Positions 55,486 through 63,010 of a stretch of DNA of 64,000 bases are shown piece by piece. Source of the stretch: Klenkia taihuensis. GTDB lineage: Bacteria > Actinomycetota > Actinomycetes > Mycobacteriales > Geodermatophilaceae. Every line of letters begins with the position of its first letter. Position 1 is the first letter of the stretch. A program made the position numbers and the translations under genes. The notes beneath the pieces are model-generated. The model searched no databases, was not told the origin of the DNA, and saw only the letters and a list, made by a program, of their open reading frames with translations. The DNA lies in the NCBI RefSeq assembly GCF_900112525.1, contig NZ_FOMD01000001.1:186001-250000 (forward strand). Direction: 5' to 3'.

Positions 55486-56157
55486 TCAGGTGTCGGCGCG
55501 GAGCAGGGGCGGGTGCAGCTGCTCGGCCGCGCCGCGCCGGAACAGCTGCGCCGGCCGGCCGCCGTCCCTCGTGGTGGTCTCCCCCGTCGGTTCCAGCAGG
55601 CCGGGGGTGCCGGTGACCTTGCGGTGGAAGTTCCGCGGGTCCAGCGCCCGGCCCCAGACCACCTCGTAGACCCGGCGCAGCTGGGCGACGGTGAACTCGC
55701 CGTCGCAGAAGGCCGTGCCCAGCGCGGTGTACTCCAGCTTCGCCCGCGCCCGCTCCACGCCGTCGGCGAGCACCCGGTCGTGGTCGAACGCCAGCCCTCG
55801 GGCCTGCGTGACCGGCACCCAGCGCGCCTCCGCGGCGTCGGTCCCCGCCGTCGGCACCGGCTGGTCGGGCACCAGCGCCAGGTGCGCGACGGTGACCACC
55901 CGCTGTCGGGGGTCGCGGTCCGGGTCGCCGTAGGAGGCCAGCTGCTCCAGGTGCCCCACCGCCAGCCCGGTCTCCTCGGCGAGCTCGCGGGCGGCCGCCG
56001 TCGCCAGGTCCTCGTCGGGGCGCACGAACCCGCCGGGGAGGGCGTCCCGGCCCCGGAACGGCTCCTCGCCGCGGCGCACCAGCAGCACGCACAGCTCGTC
56101 GGCGCGCACGGTCAGCACGACCAGGTCGACGGTCACCGCGAACGGGGGGTGGGCCAC
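55486..56157 (-). CDS. NrtR-like Nudix transcriptional regulator
   Basis: A 223-residue protein with an N-terminal Nudix domain (LVVLTVRADELCVLLVRRG; Nudix box GGFVRPDEDLATAA then RELAEETGL) and a C-terminal winged helix (YTALGTAFCDGEFTVAQLRR, VYEVVWGRALDPRNFHRKV). This is the architecture of NrtR, which senses ADP-ribose or related nucleotides and represses NAD genes. The Nudix box is intact, so it may also hydrolyse. GTG start is 6 nt after TAGGGT (56169-56164). It is divergent from the SPFH-NAD-kinase-like operon, with two operator-like repeats between. Confidence 0.85.
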   Translation of the reverse strand: MAHPPFAVTVDLVVLTVRADELCVLLVRRGEEPFRGRDALPGGFVRPDEDLATAAARELAEETGLAVGHLEQLASYGDPDRDPRQRVVTVAHLALVPDQPVPTAGTDAAEARWVPVTQARGLAFDHDRVLADGVERARAKLEYTALGTAFCDGEFTVAQLRRVYEVVWGRALDPRNFHRKVTGTPGLLEPTGETTTRDGGRPAQLFRRGAAEQLHPPLLRADT

Positions 56158-56166
56158 GGCGCCACC

Positions 56167-56221
56167 CTAGCGTCAAGTTGACGACAAGCCATCCGCCTGT
56201 TTATCGTCGCGTTGACGACAA
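56167..56221. promoter_or_regulatory. Tandem NrtR-like operators over divergent promoters
   Basis: The 17-bp sequences CGTCAAGTTGACGACAA (56171-56187) and CGTCGCGTTGACGACAA (56205-56221) are 15/17 identical and 34 bp apart. Each is palindromic about its centre. The first supplies TTGACG (56178-56183), a -35, and TATCGT (56202-56207) a -10 with an 18-bp spacer, for the SPFH gene. A bound protein would block both that promoter and the NrtR-like gene's own. Confidence 0.65.
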
Positions 56222-56238
56222 CGAACGAGGAGGACGTC

Positions 56239-57237
56239 ATGGCCGACATCGCCCGCTACCCCTTCACCCGCCACCTGCGCGGATCGGCGACCGCCTACGT
56301 GCAGCACGTGACGGCCGGCCGGCTGCGGCACGGCGGCACCGGCGCCAGCTTCTGGTTCCGCCCGCTGTCGGCGGTGCTCAGCGAGGTGCCGGTCGACGAC
56401 CGCGAGCTGCCCCTGCTGTTCCACGCCCGGACGGCGGACTTCCAGGACGTCACCGTGCAGATGACGCTGACCTTCCGCTTCGCCGACCCCGCGCTCGCCG
56501 TCGGCCGGGTCGACTTCTCCGTCGACCCCGACACCGGCCTGTGGCGCGGCACCCCGCTGGAGCAGGTCGCCGGGCTGCTCACCGAGTCGGCCCAGCAGCA
56601 CGCCATCGACCTGCTGGCCGGCACCGGGCTGACCACCGCGCTCACCGCCGGCGTCGGCCCGGTGCGCGACGCCGTCGCCGCCGGCCTGGCCGCCGACGCG
56701 CGGCTGGTCGAGACCGGCATCGCCGTCGTCGACGTCCGGGTGGTGGCGATCCGGCCCGAGCCCGAGGTCGAGCGGGCACTGCGGACGCCGACCCGCGAGC
56801 GGGTGCAGGCCGAGGCGGACGCCGCGACCTACGCCCGGCGGGCCACCGCGGTGGAGCGGGAGCGGGCGATCAGCGAGAACGAGCTCGCCAACCAGGTGGA
56901 GCTGGCCCGCCGCGAGGAGGAGCTGGTCGGCCAGCGCGGCGTCAACGCCCGGCGGGAGGCCGAGAACGCCGCGGCCGCCGCCGAGGTGGCCGCGGAGTCC
57001 AAGGCCCGCCGCGACCGTGCCGCCGCGCAGGTCGAGGCCGAGCGCACCCGGGTGCAGGGTGAGGCCCGCGGTGCGGCCAACCGCGCCGAGTGGGCCGTCT
57101 GGGTGGACATGCCGGTGGAGACCGTGCACGCCCTGGCGCTGCGCCAGCTGGCCTCGAACCTGCCGCAGATCCAGAACGTCACGGTGACGCCGGACATGCT
57201 GACGGGCCTGCTGGCCAAGCTCGGGAGCGAGCGTTGA
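56239..57237 (+). CDS. SPFH/band 7 domain protein with coiled-coil tail
   Basis: A 332-residue protein. Residues about 15-190 have the SPFH/band-7 look ([56 protein letters not shown]). Residues about 195-290 are an Ala/Glu/Arg-rich coiled coil. There is no N-terminal membrane helix, unlike flotillins, so it is probably cytosolic or peripheral and may oligomerise. ATG at 56239 has GAGGAGG upstream. Its stop overlaps the TTG start of the NAD-kinase-like gene. Function is unknown. Confidence 0.85.
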
Positions 57238-58115
57238 GCCTGGCCCCCCGGGTGGTGCTGGTGCACCGGGCCACCGAGCTCACCGAGCTGGTGGCCCGGC
57301 ACGGCACCCGCGGGCAGGCGGCGTTCTTCCTGCGCAGCCGCGGCCGGGACGTCGAGGAGGTCGCCGCGCGCGACGCCGCCCAGCAGGCCGCCGTCGCCAC
57401 CGCGCTGGCGCAGGTGCCGCTGGAGTGGCGGCGGGGCAGCGTGGAGCGCGCCGACCTGCCGCGGTTCCTGTTCGCCCCGGACGACGTCGTCCTCGTGGTC
57501 GGGCAGGACGGGCTGGTCGCCAACGTGGCCAAGTACCTCGACGGCCAGCCCGTCGTCGGGGTCGACCCCGAGCCCGGCCGCAACGCCGGCGTGCTGGTCC
57601 GGCACCGGGCCGCCGACGTCGGCGAGCTCCTGGCCGCCCGCCACCGCACCCAGGCGCGGACCACGGTGCGGGCCCGGACCGACGACGGGCAGGAGCTGAC
57701 CGCGCTCAACGAGGTCTACCTGGGCCAGCCGACCCACCAGACCGCCCGCTACCGGCTGCAGGCGCCCGGGGCCGAGCCGGAGCGGCAGGCGTCGTCCGGG
57801 CTGCTGGTGTCGACCGGGACCGGCGCCACCGGGTGGTGCCGGTCGGCAGCCCTGGAGCGGCGCAGCGAGCTCGCGCTGCCCGGTCCGACCGACCCGGCGC
57901 TGGCCTGGTTCGTGCGGGAGGCCTGGCCCTCCCCGGTCACCGGCGCCAGCTGCACCGAGGGTCTGCTGGCGGCCGGCGAGGAGCTGGCGGTGACCGTGGA
58001 GAGCGACCGCCTGGTGGCCTTCGGCGACGGACTGGAGGACGACCACCTGACCCTCACCTGGGGTCAGCGGGTGACCGTCGGCCGGGCGGAGCGGGCGCTG
58101 CAGCTGGTCCTGTGA
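57234..58115 (+). CDS. NAD-kinase-fold protein with altered active-site motif
   Basis: A 293-residue protein resembling the NAD kinase/diacylglycerol kinase fold. The usual GGDGT loop reads [16 protein letters not shown]; other NAD-kinase blocks are [35 protein letters not shown] (the conserved NE) and [19 protein letters not shown] (replacing TPTGSTAY). Because the first Gly pair is changed, NAD phosphorylation may be lost or shifted to another substrate. TTG at 57234 overlaps the SPFH stop (TTGA). An ordinary ppnK is expected elsewhere in the genome. Confidence 0.78.
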
Positions 58116-58128
58116 GCTCACCTGCGGG

Positions 58129-58190
58129 CCGTCGATCGACGCTGACCGATCAGTTCGAGCGCGGAATGATCGATGTGCGTCGATCGACGG
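58129..58190. repeat. Paired palindromes between the NAD-kinase-like and methyltransferase genes
   Basis: CCGTCGATCGACG (58129-58141) and its reverse complement (58178-58190) flank a 36-nt centre that also has GATC-rich words. Each arm contains the self-palindrome CGTCGATCGACG. It could be a large terminator hairpin for this convergent pair or a protein-binding site. Confidence 0.55.
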
Positions 58191-58784
58191 TCACCCAGCC
58201 GGGCGGAGGAGGGCGACCAGGAAGGTCGAGTCCGCGGCGAAGGGGCGCAGGTCCCACGTGGACAGCAGCACGTCCTCCGCCCAGCCGGTCGCCGCGGCGT
58301 CGGCGCGGAACTCGGCGAACCCGTAGCCGCGGTGGTCGCCGAACCCGATGGCCATCCGGCCCTCGGGCACCAGGTGCGCGCGCAGCCGGGTGAGCGCGTC
58401 CCGGCGCAGCGCCGGCTCGACGAAGGTGATGACGTTGCCCGCGCAGACCACCGCGTCGAAGGTCTCGCCGAGGTCGAAGGTGGTCAGGTCGTCGACCAGC
58501 CACCGGGGTCCGGGGTGGTCGGTCCCGGCGGCGGCGACCAGCACCGGGTCGCCGTCCACCCCGGTGACGACGTGCCCGGCGCGGTGCAGCGCGCCGCCGA
58601 CCCGGCCCGGCCCGCAGCCGGCGTCCAGCACCCGCGAACCGCGGGGCAGCATCGCGTCGACGAGGCGTGCCTCGCCGTCCAGGTCGGCGCCCTCGGCCGC
58701 CAGGCCGCGGAAGCGGTCGACGTACCACTGGGAGTGGTCGGGGTCCTCGGCCGTGATGGCGGCCCAGCTCGCGTGCTCGCTCAT
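58191..58784 (-). CDS. Class I SAM-dependent methyltransferase
   Basis: A 197-residue methyltransferase. Motif I is VLDAGCGPGRVGGALHRAG, then VTGVDGDP, and motif IV-like AVVCAGNVITFVEP. The substrate is unknown. ATG at 58784 (MSEHASWAAI). It is divergent from dinB; only about 18 bp separate the two starts, so their promoters must overlap. Confidence 0.87.
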   Translation of the reverse strand: MSEHASWAAITAEDPDHSQWYVDRFRGLAAEGADLDGEARLVDAMLPRGSRVLDAGCGPGRVGGALHRAGHVVTGVDGDPVLVAAAGTDHPGPRWLVDDLTTFDLGETFDAVVCAGNVITFVEPALRRDALTRLRAHLVPEGRMAIGFGDHRGYGFAEFRADAAATGWAEDVLLSTWDLRPFAADSTFLVALLRPAG

Positions 58785-60146: not shown

Positions 60147-60742
60147 GCGGTCGCGACCGCGAACGCCCGCAGCATGGCCGGCTCGAGCTCCGGCGTCGCG
60201 GCGGCGTCGGTGAGCTCCCGGGCCCGCCGGGTCGACTCCTGGAACGCCGGGTCGTCGTAGGTGGTCACCCAGCGCAGGTAGGGGTGGTCCGGGACGGCGC
60301 GGGCGGCGGGGGCCAGCCGGGCGCCGGTGTGCGCGTACACCCAGAAGCAGGGCAGCACCGCCGCGCAGCCCACCGCGTACGGCTCGGTCGCCGCCGTCGC
60401 CACCAGGTAGGAGACGTAGGCCCGGCAGGTCGCGCTGGGCTCGTCGGTGCGCGGGCCGCCGCCGAGCAGCTCCAGCAGGTCACCGTGCAGCGCGGTCTCC
60501 ACCACCGCGGCGGTGTGCGCGGAGCCCGCCCAGAACGCCCCGGCCCGCGGGTCGGGGGCGCGGGCGGCCAGCAGCGCCAGCGCCCTGGCGTAGCCGGCCA
60601 GGTAGAGCGCGTCCTGCTCCAGGTAGAACCGGAAAGCGGCGGGGTCGAGGCTGCCGTCGGCCAGGTCGGCGAGGAACCCCAGCGCGTCGATCTCGGCACG
60701 CACCACCTCGGTGCCGGCCCACGCCCGCTCGCTGAAGGTCAC
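60065..60742 (-). CDS. tenA: TenA family thiaminase II / aminopyrimidine hydrolase
   Basis: A 225-residue helical protein that salvages thiamin pyrimidine (aminopyrimidine aminohydrolase). Seen: FRFYLEQDALYLAGYARALA with the Asp, the active Cys in LPCFWVYAHTG, and the Glu in ATAYEREFWSSV. GTG at 60742 overlaps the thiD stop, so it is the last gene of the thi operon. The C-terminal 15 residues are Ser/Gly-rich and overlap dinB. Confidence 0.93.
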   Translation of the reverse strand: MTFSERAWAGTEVVRAEIDALGFLADLADGSLDPAAFRFYLEQDALYLAGYARALALLAARAPDPRAGAFWAGSAHTAAVVETALHGDLLELLGGGPRTDEPSATCRAYVSYLVATAATEPYAVGCAAVLPCFWVYAHTGARLAPAARAVPDHPYLRWVTTYDDPAFQESTRRARELTDAAATPELEPAMLRAFAVATAYEREFWSSVPRQSGGSAGTSAGSSTA

Positions 60743-61578
60743 CGGTGGTCCCCCCACAGCTGCGCCAGGTGGTGCACGGGCCCGTTGCCGGTGCCGACGT
60801 GCAGGTCGTCGGCGGCCTCGAGCCCGGCCTGCAGCAGGTCCCGGGCGTCCTCGACCAGCGCGGGCCAGTCGGGGGCGGCCCCGGCCGTCGACGGCACGGT
60901 GGCGACCGCGGCCAGGGCTGCGGACAGCGTGCAGCCGGTGCCGTGCGTGTTCGACGTCGGGACGACGGGACGGCGGGACACGTGCACCCCGCCGCCGCGG
61001 ACGGCGAGCACGTCGACGCCCTCCCCCAGCTCGTCGGCCAGGTGCCCGCCCTTGACCAGCACCGCAGCCGGCCCCAGGTCCAGCAGTGCCACCGCCTGCG
61101 CGCGCAGGTCGGCCTCGCTGCGCGCGGGGTCCGTGCACAGCATGCGGGCGGCCTCCGGGACGTTCGGCGTCACCAGGGCGGCCACCGGCAGCAGCACGTC
61201 CCGGATGGCCGCCACGGCCTCGGCGTCGACCAGGGCGTCGCCGCTGGTGGCGACCATGACGGGGTCGACCACCACGGGCCCCGCCGTCCCGCCGCCGAGC
61301 ACGCCGGCGACGGCCTCCACCACCTCGGCGGTGGGGAGCATGCCGGTCTTGGTGGCGTGCACGGCGACGTCGTCGAGCAGGGTGGTGAGCTGGTCCACCA
61401 CGAAGGACGCCGGGACGACGTGCACCCCGGTCACGCCGCGGGTGCTCTGCGCGGTGAGCGCGGTGAGGACCGCGCAGCCGTAGGCACCCAGGGCGCTGAA
61501 CGCCTTGAGGTCGGCCTGGATGCCCGCTCCCCCGCTCGGGTCGGACCCGGCGACGCTGAGCGCCACCCGGGCACTCAC
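60739..61578 (-). CDS. thiD: Hydroxymethylpyrimidine / phosphomethylpyrimidine kinase
   Basis: A 279-residue ribokinase-like enzyme that phosphorylates HMP and HMP-P in thiamin synthesis. Seen: [65 protein letters not shown] and the ATP site [18 protein letters not shown] at 61578 overlaps the thiE stop. Operon thiM-thiE-thiD-tenA. Confidence 0.96.
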
Positions 61579-62207
61579 CGGGACGCCCGGCGGAGGGCGG
61601 CCGCGGCAGCGTGCGGGTCGGGTGCGGCGCAGACGTCGGAGACCACGCACACGCCGTCGACACCGGTGGAGGTCAGCTCGGCGACCCGGTCGGCACGGAC
61701 GCCGCCGATCGCCACCGTCGTCAGCCCCCCGGCGCCGGCCACCAGCCGGGCGACGCCCGCGGGGCCGAGGGCCGGGCCGGCGTCGGTCTTGGTCGCGGTC
61801 GCCCAGACGGGGCCGATGCCCAGCAGGTCCACCGTGCCCGCCGGCAGCGCCCGGGCGGCGGCCAGTTCCTCGTCGGTGCCCACCGAGAGGCCGACGTGCA
61901 GGTGGGGGGCGTGCGCCCGGACCTCGGTGACCGGCAGGTCGGACCGGCCCACGTGCACGCCGTCCGCCCCGGCCAGCAGCGCGACGTCCAGGGCGTCGTC
62001 GACGACGACCGCGACGTCCCGCCGGTCGGCGAGCGCGGCCTGCACGGCCCGGGTCAGCTCGAGCAGCTCGCGCCGGGAGGCGGTCTTGTCCCGCACCTGG
62101 ACGGCGGTGACCCCGCCGGCGACCGCGGCCGCCACGACCTCGGGCACCGAGCGCGGGGCGCAGAGGGCGGTGTCGGTGACCAGGTACAGCGTCGGGTCGA
62201 ACCTCAC
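61575..62207 (-). CDS. thiE: Thiamin-phosphate synthase
   Basis: A 210-residue TIM-barrel enzyme that joins HMP-PP and thiazole phosphate into thiamin phosphate. Seen: [89 protein letters not shown] and VAIGGV. GTG at 62207 overlaps the thiM stop. Confidence 0.96.
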
Positions 62208-63010
62208 GCCTGGTCCCGGACGTCGGCGTCGGCCAGCTCGTCGGGGCCGATGGCGTCGAGGGCGTCCAGCCAGGCGGTCGCGAAGGACCCCGGGCCGCCG
62301 CAGACCGCCGCCGCGCGCTCGGCGGCCCGGGCCGTGTGCGCGTGGGCGGCGACGGCGCCCCACAGGCCGGACCCCGTCGCGGCCACGTACGCGGCGGTCA
62401 GCGCGCCCAGGGCGCAGCCGGCCCCCGTGGTGCGGGTCAGCAGGACGTGGCCGCCGCCGACCCGGAGGGTGCGCTCGCCGTCGGTGAACAGGTCGACCTC
62501 GCCGCTCACCGCGACGACGCCACCGGTGCGGCGGGCCAGGTCGGTGGCCGCCGCCGCGGCGCTGTCGACCCCCGCGGTGCTGTCGGTGCCCCGCCCGCCG
62601 GCCCCGGCGCCGGCCAGCGCGATGACCTCGGAGGCGTTGCCGCGGACGACGTCGGGCCGGTGATCGAGCAGCTCGGCGGCCAGCCGGGTGCGGAACCCGA
62701 GCGCGCCCACCGCGACCGGGTCGAGCACCCAGGGCTTCGCGTCGTCGGCGGCCCGCGCAGCGGCGGCCCGCATGGCCTCGGCCGTGCGGGCGTTGAGCGT
62801 GCCGACGTTGACCAGCACGGCCGAGGCGAGGCCGGCGAACTCCGCGGCCTCCTCGGGGGCGTCCACCATGGCCGGCGAGGCGCCGACGGCGAGCAGGGCG
62901 TTCGCGGTGAAGGCCTGCACGACGGTGTTGGTCAGGCAGTGCACCAGGGGGCGCACCTCGGTGAGGGCGGCCCGGGCCGCCATCAGCGACGCGGTCGTGG
63001 AACGGCTCAT
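62204..63010 (-). CDS. thiM: Hydroxyethylthiazole kinase
   Basis: A 268-residue kinase that phosphorylates the thiazole moiety for salvage. Seen: [69 protein letters not shown] and the ATP site [19 protein letters not shown] at 63010. It is the first gene after the TPP riboswitch and so is expected to be shut off when thiamin pyrophosphate is high. Confidence 0.95.

Follow-up and report, generated by a model that had tools for sequence, protein, structure and literature searches.

A conserved cassette of an NrtR-type regulator, an anchor-free SPFH protein and an NADK2-like kinase in Klenkia taihuensis and its possible control by an NAD-derived ligand

The stretch of DNA analysed here (the window; 64,000 nucleotides (nt) of Klenkia taihuensis, G000:C10:186001-250000 in a genome of 4.3 Mb on 10 contigs) contains a compact cassette of three genes. 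An NrtR-type regulator (P0003; 55486-56157, minus strand, GTG start), in which a Nudix domain with an intact GX5EX7REUXEEXGU box is combined with an NrtR winged helix, is divergently arranged to a two-gene operon that encodes an SPFH/Band 7 protein of 332 amino acids (P0001; 56239-57237, plus strand) and an NADK2-like kinase of 293 amino acids (P0002; 57234-58115, plus strand; TTG start; motifs GQDG, NE, VREAWPSP and FGDG). The stop codon of the SPFH gene and the start codon of the kinase gene overlap in the tetranucleotide TTGA, and the reading of this overlap at 57234-57237 (plus strand) from the sequence verified the coupling of both genes that had been described in the original prediction, a note on this DNA drawn up before the present analysis. 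The nearest named relatives at the cassette locus were members of Klenkia (kinase identity 84-95%); the flanking genes are unrelated to it, a YjbR gene preceding the cassette and a methyltransferase gene following it.

The region between the divergent genes contains two 20-nt repeats with 85% identity and a spacing of 34 bp, both of which match the palindrome TCGTCA-N3-TGACGA; based on repetition and conservation, they are predicted to be operator boxes without strand assignment (box 1, TAGCGTCAAGTTGACGACAA, 56168-56187; box 2, TATCGTCGCGTTGACGACAA, 56202-56221). The only promoter-like site within 56100-58250 (shuffle mean 0.0) is TTGACG-18-TATCGT (56178-56207, plus strand), whose -35 hexamer falls within box 1, while the -10 hexamer occupies the left end of box 2; a repressor bound to the two boxes would cover both hexamers. 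The pattern TTGACN-16/19-TAYNNT recurred in 64 of 81 loci and, given the location of the hexamers in the boxes, the promoter seems to dictate how far apart the boxes are. In a search with the 15-mer TCGTCANNNTGACGA that tolerated up to three mismatches per box, paired boxes were present in 62 of the 81 promoter stretches (150 bp upstream for the six loci without adjacent NrtR) versus 6 of 16,200 base-shuffled controls; the spacing among these 62 loci was 34 bp (38 loci), 33 bp (11), 45 bp (10), 39 bp (2) or 42 bp (1), and in some of the 19 remaining stretches the first box overlaps the regulator start and lies outside the scored stretch. The previous claim that the repeats cover the SPFH promoter was thus borne out by the operator-like boxes and the position of the hexamers inside them. 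On the regulator side, a putative -10 element (TAGGGT, 56164-56169, minus strand) is located 7 nt before the GTG, and the regulator transcript would be leaderless according to this reading.

Genomes with a displaced regulator served as a natural experiment on the binding partner of the boxes. In streptomycetes, the NrtR gene is not adjacent to the cassette. Of 20 genomes inspected for lack of adjacency, 17 encode an NrtR of orthologue strength at an unlinked site (E 4e-101 or better) and three a distant NrtR only; among 11 promoters examined from these genomes, all eight with a strong NrtR have retained both boxes and the promoter, whereas all three without one (L061, L070, L146) have not. A box of the same type was located directly upstream of three of four unlinked NrtR genes (L215, L216 and L220, not L221). 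Two Nocardia cassettes (L061, L070) without the orthologous NrtR and its boxes contain another palindrome, of the type TTATGGTCA-N3-TGACCATAA, at the SPFH promoter; this is, as judged from the promoter sequences, a regulator swap. In the genome of the window, the exact pattern occurred three times, i.e. in the two boxes and at one site inside a coding region on another contig, and a wide regulon was rejected for this genome on these grounds; 34 sites, 31 of them at one mismatch, were found with up to one mismatch allowed versus 18 for the reversed control. Exact TCGTCANNNTGACGA sites were present in 33 of 39 genomes, often beyond those of the cassette itself. Taken as a prediction from sequence, repression of the SPFH-kinase operon and of its own gene by NrtR is well supported.

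The Nudix-winged-helix architecture previously proposed for the regulator was confirmed by two Pfam models, both above cut-off (NUDIX PF00293, 83.5 bits, cut-off 21.1; NrtR_WHD PF21906, 55.4 bits, cut-off 27), and no other NrtR winged helix was found in the genome. According to the excerpted text of PMC6800001, the NrtR of M. smegmatis (MSMEG_3198) likewise combines Nudix domain and NrtR winged helix and has palindromic operators beside its own gene and a divergent target; however, this target is nadABC instead of an SPFH-kinase pair, the operator is GTTTTCGA-N7-TCGAAAAC in contrast to the TCGTCA-N3-TGACGA predicted here, and the Nudix box is changed, with no detectable hydrolase activity according to the same excerpt, whereas all seven checked signature residues are present in 73 of 75 actinobacterial homologues of the cassette regulator. 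Two mycobacterial cassette genomes carry a second, distant NrtR in addition (E 3e-40 or weaker versus 1e-122); the cassette regulator is therefore a distinct paralogue. The Streptomyces-like genomes of L217 and L218 likewise contain a further NrtR paralogue (E about 1e-95), which has an upstream palindrome of its own, of the type ATAGTCA-N3-CGACTAT.

The SPFH protein matched the Band_7 model (PF01145, 43.2 bits, cut-off 23.6). Its predicted structure (mean predicted local distance difference test score (pLDDT) 85.6, predicted template modelling score 0.54) consists of the SPFH domain and a single helix of 115 residues (175-289), an arrangement also present in HflK/C, stomatin, prohibitin, flotillin and major vault protein. 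The best fold matches were subunits of SPFH oligomers (7vhq, an HflK/C structure; HflK/C, stomatin, erlin, flotillin, prohibitin) and, at lower rank, major vault protein; the global fit to these known oligomers was modest (template modelling score of at most 0.50 by query length, for a single-chain prediction). The highest 19-residue mean hydropathy across 47 aligned SPFH homologues was only 1.66, and a membrane helix is therefore absent, in agreement with the earlier description of a coiled-coil protein without membrane helix; the protein thus has no counterpart of the anchor by which HflK/C, stomatin and prohibitin are typically held in the membrane. It may form a soluble ring or cage, and peripheral membrane attachment is conceivable.

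The predicted structure of the kinase (mean pLDDT 93.6) had the human mitochondrial NADK2 (C5orf33; 7r4j-7r4m, 7n29) as its closest solved relative, with a fold match over nearly the full length (Z 24.4, root-mean-square deviation 3.0, 275 aligned residues), followed by bacterial NAD (nicotinamide adenine dinucleotide) kinases at Z 21.6 and below (P. aeruginosa 7qvs, Z 21.6; M. tuberculosis Ppnk 1u0r, Z 21.1); a cross-phylum kinase profile correspondingly gave 7.5e-22 for NADK2 versus 6.9e-7 for the best canonical NAD kinase. According to the part of PMC8553519 consulted, NADK2 and plant NADK3 are relatives, phosphorylation of NADH by NADK2 was preliminarily reported, and conserved region II of the NAD kinases extends from Asp-189 to Val-210 of Ppnk. 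In the alignment of this region, Thr is kept in the cassette kinase, whereas Asp is substituted by Ser and Tyr by Trp, as is the case in NADK2; together with TGTG in place of TPTG and the RE(P) motif, these SSG-TGTG-W features are shared with NADK2 and not with the canonical enzymes. The kinase differs from NADK2 by GQDGL instead of GGDGT, by its shorter length and by its SPFH operon partner. Compared with the canonical NAD kinases, it has the fold, the catalytic Asp and the NE motif in common, but GGDG, the region II Asp and T-A-Y are replaced, a Pfam match is missing and a separate canonical enzyme is encoded in the genome.

The catalytic Asp92 is retained, as are N159/E160, T199 and D265/G266. 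The GGDG position is occupied by GQDG at residues 90-93; of 81 aligned homologues, 79 have GQDG as well and two have GPDG, with the Asp and the last Gly kept. NE was found in all 81, is represented by ND in the proteobacterial and Treponema members, and the catalytic Asp and the NE/ND pair were kept in 16 of 16 kinases aligned across phyla. The NAD-kinase fold of the original prediction and its alteration of GGDG to GQDG therefore stood, although the latter turned out to be a signature of the whole family and no local decay, and the assignment was refined to an NADK2-like protein. Judged by its residues, the kinase fails a strict GGDG test yet looks catalytically competent. Its identity as the housekeeping ppnK was rejected, since a canonical NAD kinase gene is present elsewhere in the genome (G000:C6:165914-166291; PF20143, 118.7 bits, cut-off 23.7); the case named beforehand as contradicting a special role, a kinase that is the sole housekeeping ppnK, was thus not encountered. 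The cassette kinase itself is a single-copy gene in its genome.

A kinase scan of 84,980 species genomes yielded at least 422 confirmed relatives, the best 80 loci of which were used for comparison; as the top matches were selected, this set is skewed to close relatives. SPFH adjoins the kinase in 80/80 of these best loci (in L074 and L079 as two reading-frame pieces), a divergent NrtR gene is present in 74/80, and the SPFH stop and the kinase start overlap by 4 nt (ATGA or GTGA) in 69/80 homologous loci. Within a sample of 96 Geodermatophilaceae genomes, kinase, SPFH and NrtR (E 2e-118 or better; next genome 5e-87) were detected in the identical 14 genomes, and the conservation of the three-gene neighbourhood that had been anticipated was accordingly met with across genomes. 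The NrtR of intermediate similarity (5e-87; G456:C4:58329-59018) comes from a genome of the family that lacks both SPFH and kinase. Among 396 phylum-wide genomes, the kinase (E<1e-30) was present in 22 and SPFH in 23, the odd one (G189) having an SPFH gene interrupted by the contig end; 16 more genomes gave weak kinase matches only (E 1e-10 to 5e-6). The cassette occurred in 8/8 Klenkia genomes versus 6/88 other genomes of the family, and is therefore regarded as an accessory unit that is fixed in Klenkia. At 12 further actinobacterial loci the pair was joined in every case and NrtR was adjacent in seven (four divergent, three upstream in the same direction); the kinase of L143 (G224) is split over two frames close to a contig end. 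The trees of the three proteins from 22 loci of Actinomycetota, Pseudomonadota and Spirochaetota (L139 left out) were in agreement (rank correlations of pairwise distances 0.90, 0.86 and 0.88), as would be expected of a unit inherited or moved as a whole. A fixed fourth gene was not found: across 93 loci, each of the four largest families of open reading frames (ORFs) overlaps the cassette itself, and the next family outside it occurred in 10/93.

The distribution extends to replicons of other phyla. Kinase relatives were detected in 64 records of a plasmid collection, 42 of them from Rhizobium, with Roseomonas, Cupriavidus, Moraxella, Acinetobacter, Methylomonas, Providencia, Proteus and Treponema among the other hosts; replicons that carry the cassette belong to Alpha-, Beta- and Gammaproteobacteria, and Treponema has it in a looser arrangement. 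Eleven records were inspected: nine contained the full SPFH-kinase pair and six of the eleven (Rhizobium, Cupriavidus, Moraxella, Methylomonas, Providencia, Proteus) a divergent NrtR beside the pair. A NUDIX gene of Treponema (L188), annotated as such and matched by the NrtR profile, was excluded from the adjacency count because of its distance of ~4 kb upstream. The cassette was absent from the phages searched, the viral contigs giving one unconfirmed pattern match, and the Providencia cassette gave no DNA match in E. coli. Whole cassettes (L190, L194) adjoin tet(H) in Moraxella and tet(J) in Proteus, and 3'-end remnants of a gammaproteobacterial cassette are located beside tet(H) in resistance regions (L189, L193; plasmids FJ012880.1, NC_021158.1); the DNA adjoining this cassette appears to be the source of the tetracycline genes. 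tet(H) is linked to Tn5706.

We place at roughly even chances the reading in which the cassette supplies, under certain conditions only, an NAD(H) kinase that works with a soluble SPFH oligomer, NrtR acting as repressor until a ligand derived from NAD relieves the repression. The initial step, strongly supported by sequence, would be the binding of NrtR to the two palindromes over -35/-10 and beside its own start, by which both the operon and the regulator gene would be shut. By analogy to known NrtR proteins, the Nudix domain would then bind a ligand derived from NAD, for instance ADP-ribose, and the operon would be freed, and the intact actinobacterial Nudix box suggests that the regulator can hydrolyse its own ligand and so reset itself. 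The operon would yield a second, non-housekeeping kinase of NADK2 type that, according to its predicted fold, may phosphorylate NAD or NADH; coupling and co-occurrence of the genes indicate that this kinase probably acts on or with the soluble SPFH oligomer. As a net effect, NAD breakdown would lead to extra, scaffolded capacity for the formation of NADP(H). The interpretation given in the original prediction, an SPFH oligomer working with a nucleotide-binding kinase-like protein under NAD- or ADP-ribose-linked control, is hence supported in part: the conserved unit, the operator-like boxes, the non-housekeeping kinase and the lack of a description of the set in the literature searched were upheld, whereas the kinase was redefined as NADK2-like, its GQDG as family-wide and the hydrolase box of the regulator as intact in most actinobacterial homologues.

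Several observations weigh against this reading. On the side of the regulator, the score for the NCBIfam NrtR equivalog NF050029 was 140.3 bits at a cut-off of 400, which places the protein outside that particular equivalog. Beyond the actinobacterial homologues, most Nudix boxes have decayed (examples are RKLKEKTG, seen in Moraxella and Proteus, and RALATKA, seen in L141), so that hydrolysis cannot be essential, although the box is intact in Treponema; DNA binding would thus be the constant feature of the regulator family and hydrolysis optional. The operator sequence varies between phyla, with those of the Proteobacteria still palindromic; exact boxes are located elsewhere in several genomes (up to eight in G505), and the regulon may therefore exceed one operon in some species; some cassettes (Streptomyces, Nocardia, Roseomonas) are without an adjacent regulator. 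As for the kinase, GGDG is replaced by GQDG with a following Leu, the opening Asp of region II is a Ser (likewise in NADK2), and a Pfam search gave no family at E<=1 (PF20143, 9.7 bits, cut-off 23.7). The surroundings beyond the three genes give no pointer to an NADP demand.

The main rival is a kinase with a different nucleotide substrate (ADP-ribose, a dinucleotide, or a derivative of NAD in damaged or free form) and a signal or a detoxified compound as product; the Nudix domain would sense this substrate or product. The family-wide GQDGL in place of GGDGT/S/N, the long motifs confined to the family, the position outside the canonical Pfam NAD kinase models, the ADP-ribose-type sensor in control and the canonical NAD kinase already present in the genome would all be in line with such a specificity; however, the same SSG, TGTG-W and RE(P) features are present in NADK2, which is an NAD(H) kinase, and we consider this alternative possible at a minor probability. 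The altered GGDG loop could also be taken as the mark of a catalytically dead kinase fold that serves as NAD(P) sensor and opens or closes the SPFH oligomer, but the conservation of the catalytic Asp and of NE/ND in 16/16 proteins across phyla, and of NE in 81/81, would be unneeded in a dead site and renders this view rather improbable. A mere spare NAD kinase beside an unrelated SPFH gene, both kept together by chance, is very hard to credit: descent alone can preserve synteny among close relatives, but the pair is common to Actinomycetota, Pseudomonadota and Spirochaetota amid otherwise unlike surroundings, and the presence patterns of kinase and SPFH coincide.

A stress or anti-phage module, in which phage-triggered NAD breakdown would produce ADP-ribose, switch on the cassette and thereby protect or re-route the NAD pool, might account for the patchy distribution (14/96 genomes in the family, 22/396 in the phylum), the occurrence on plasmids, the lack of fixed neighbours and the ADP-ribose-type sensor. 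Nevertheless, PADLOC recognized neither SPFH nor kinase and matched the Nudix part only weakly, and the cassette is part of the genus core in Klenkia (8/8); the absence from phages is neutral in this respect. In the survey of neighbours at 38 loci (135 of 147 ORFs, 12 long or surplus ones left out), seven PADLOC families were represented, each in 1-2/135 ORFs, and a location in a defence island was rejected for this reason; the top 25 of 176 Pfam families among the neighbour ORFs revealed no functional theme. A defence role is possible but unsupported, and we regard it as unlikely.

Downstream of the cassette, a strong hairpin (58129-58190, no strand assigned; folding z -4.5) separates the convergent kinase and methyltransferase genes. 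It consists of a near-perfect 29-nt inverted repeat that folds at -48 kcal/mol; as a T-run is missing, it was not scored as an intrinsic terminator, and the pattern scan of 56100-58250 and the hairpin region gave no terminator-like site. The hairpin is a probable two-way end of the cassette unit. Further downstream in the window (60739-63010, minus strand), a ThiD-type gene with the Pfam phosphomethylpyrimidine kinase domain, beside which ORFs resembling ThiE, ThiM and TenA were recognized by eye, is unconnected with the cassette.

In the open-access literature, no description was found that joins NrtR, SPFH and an NADK2-like kinase (the comparative NrtR survey of 2008 lay outside this scope), and the excerpted text of PMC7159879 contains one mention of SPFH, within a reference, and one of Nudix; the claim that the three-gene set is undescribed can be maintained within these bounds. 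It is conceivable, though doubtful in its full extent, that the cassette constitutes an undescribed, horizontally mobile system of bacteria, with an NADK2-type kinase of altered specificity housed in an SPFH oligomer that has no membrane anchor, and with induction by NAD breakdown via NrtR.

The cassette joins the sensing of NAD derivatives, SPFH scaffolds and NADK2-type kinases, a link that is new to the literature searched. As a compact operon, it bears on two questions, the role of soluble bacterial SPFH proteins and the divergence of NADK2 from other NAD kinases; it provides a functional label for proteins that are annotated as “hypothetical protein” or “sugar kinase”, and the repressor with its predicted operators is a potentially useful reporter of NAD breakdown. 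If the resemblance to NADK2 is by descent, such operons would encode bacterial relatives of the enzyme from mitochondria, and a partnership of NADK2 with SPFH proteins of the mitochondrion, for example prohibitins, would then be suggested as well.

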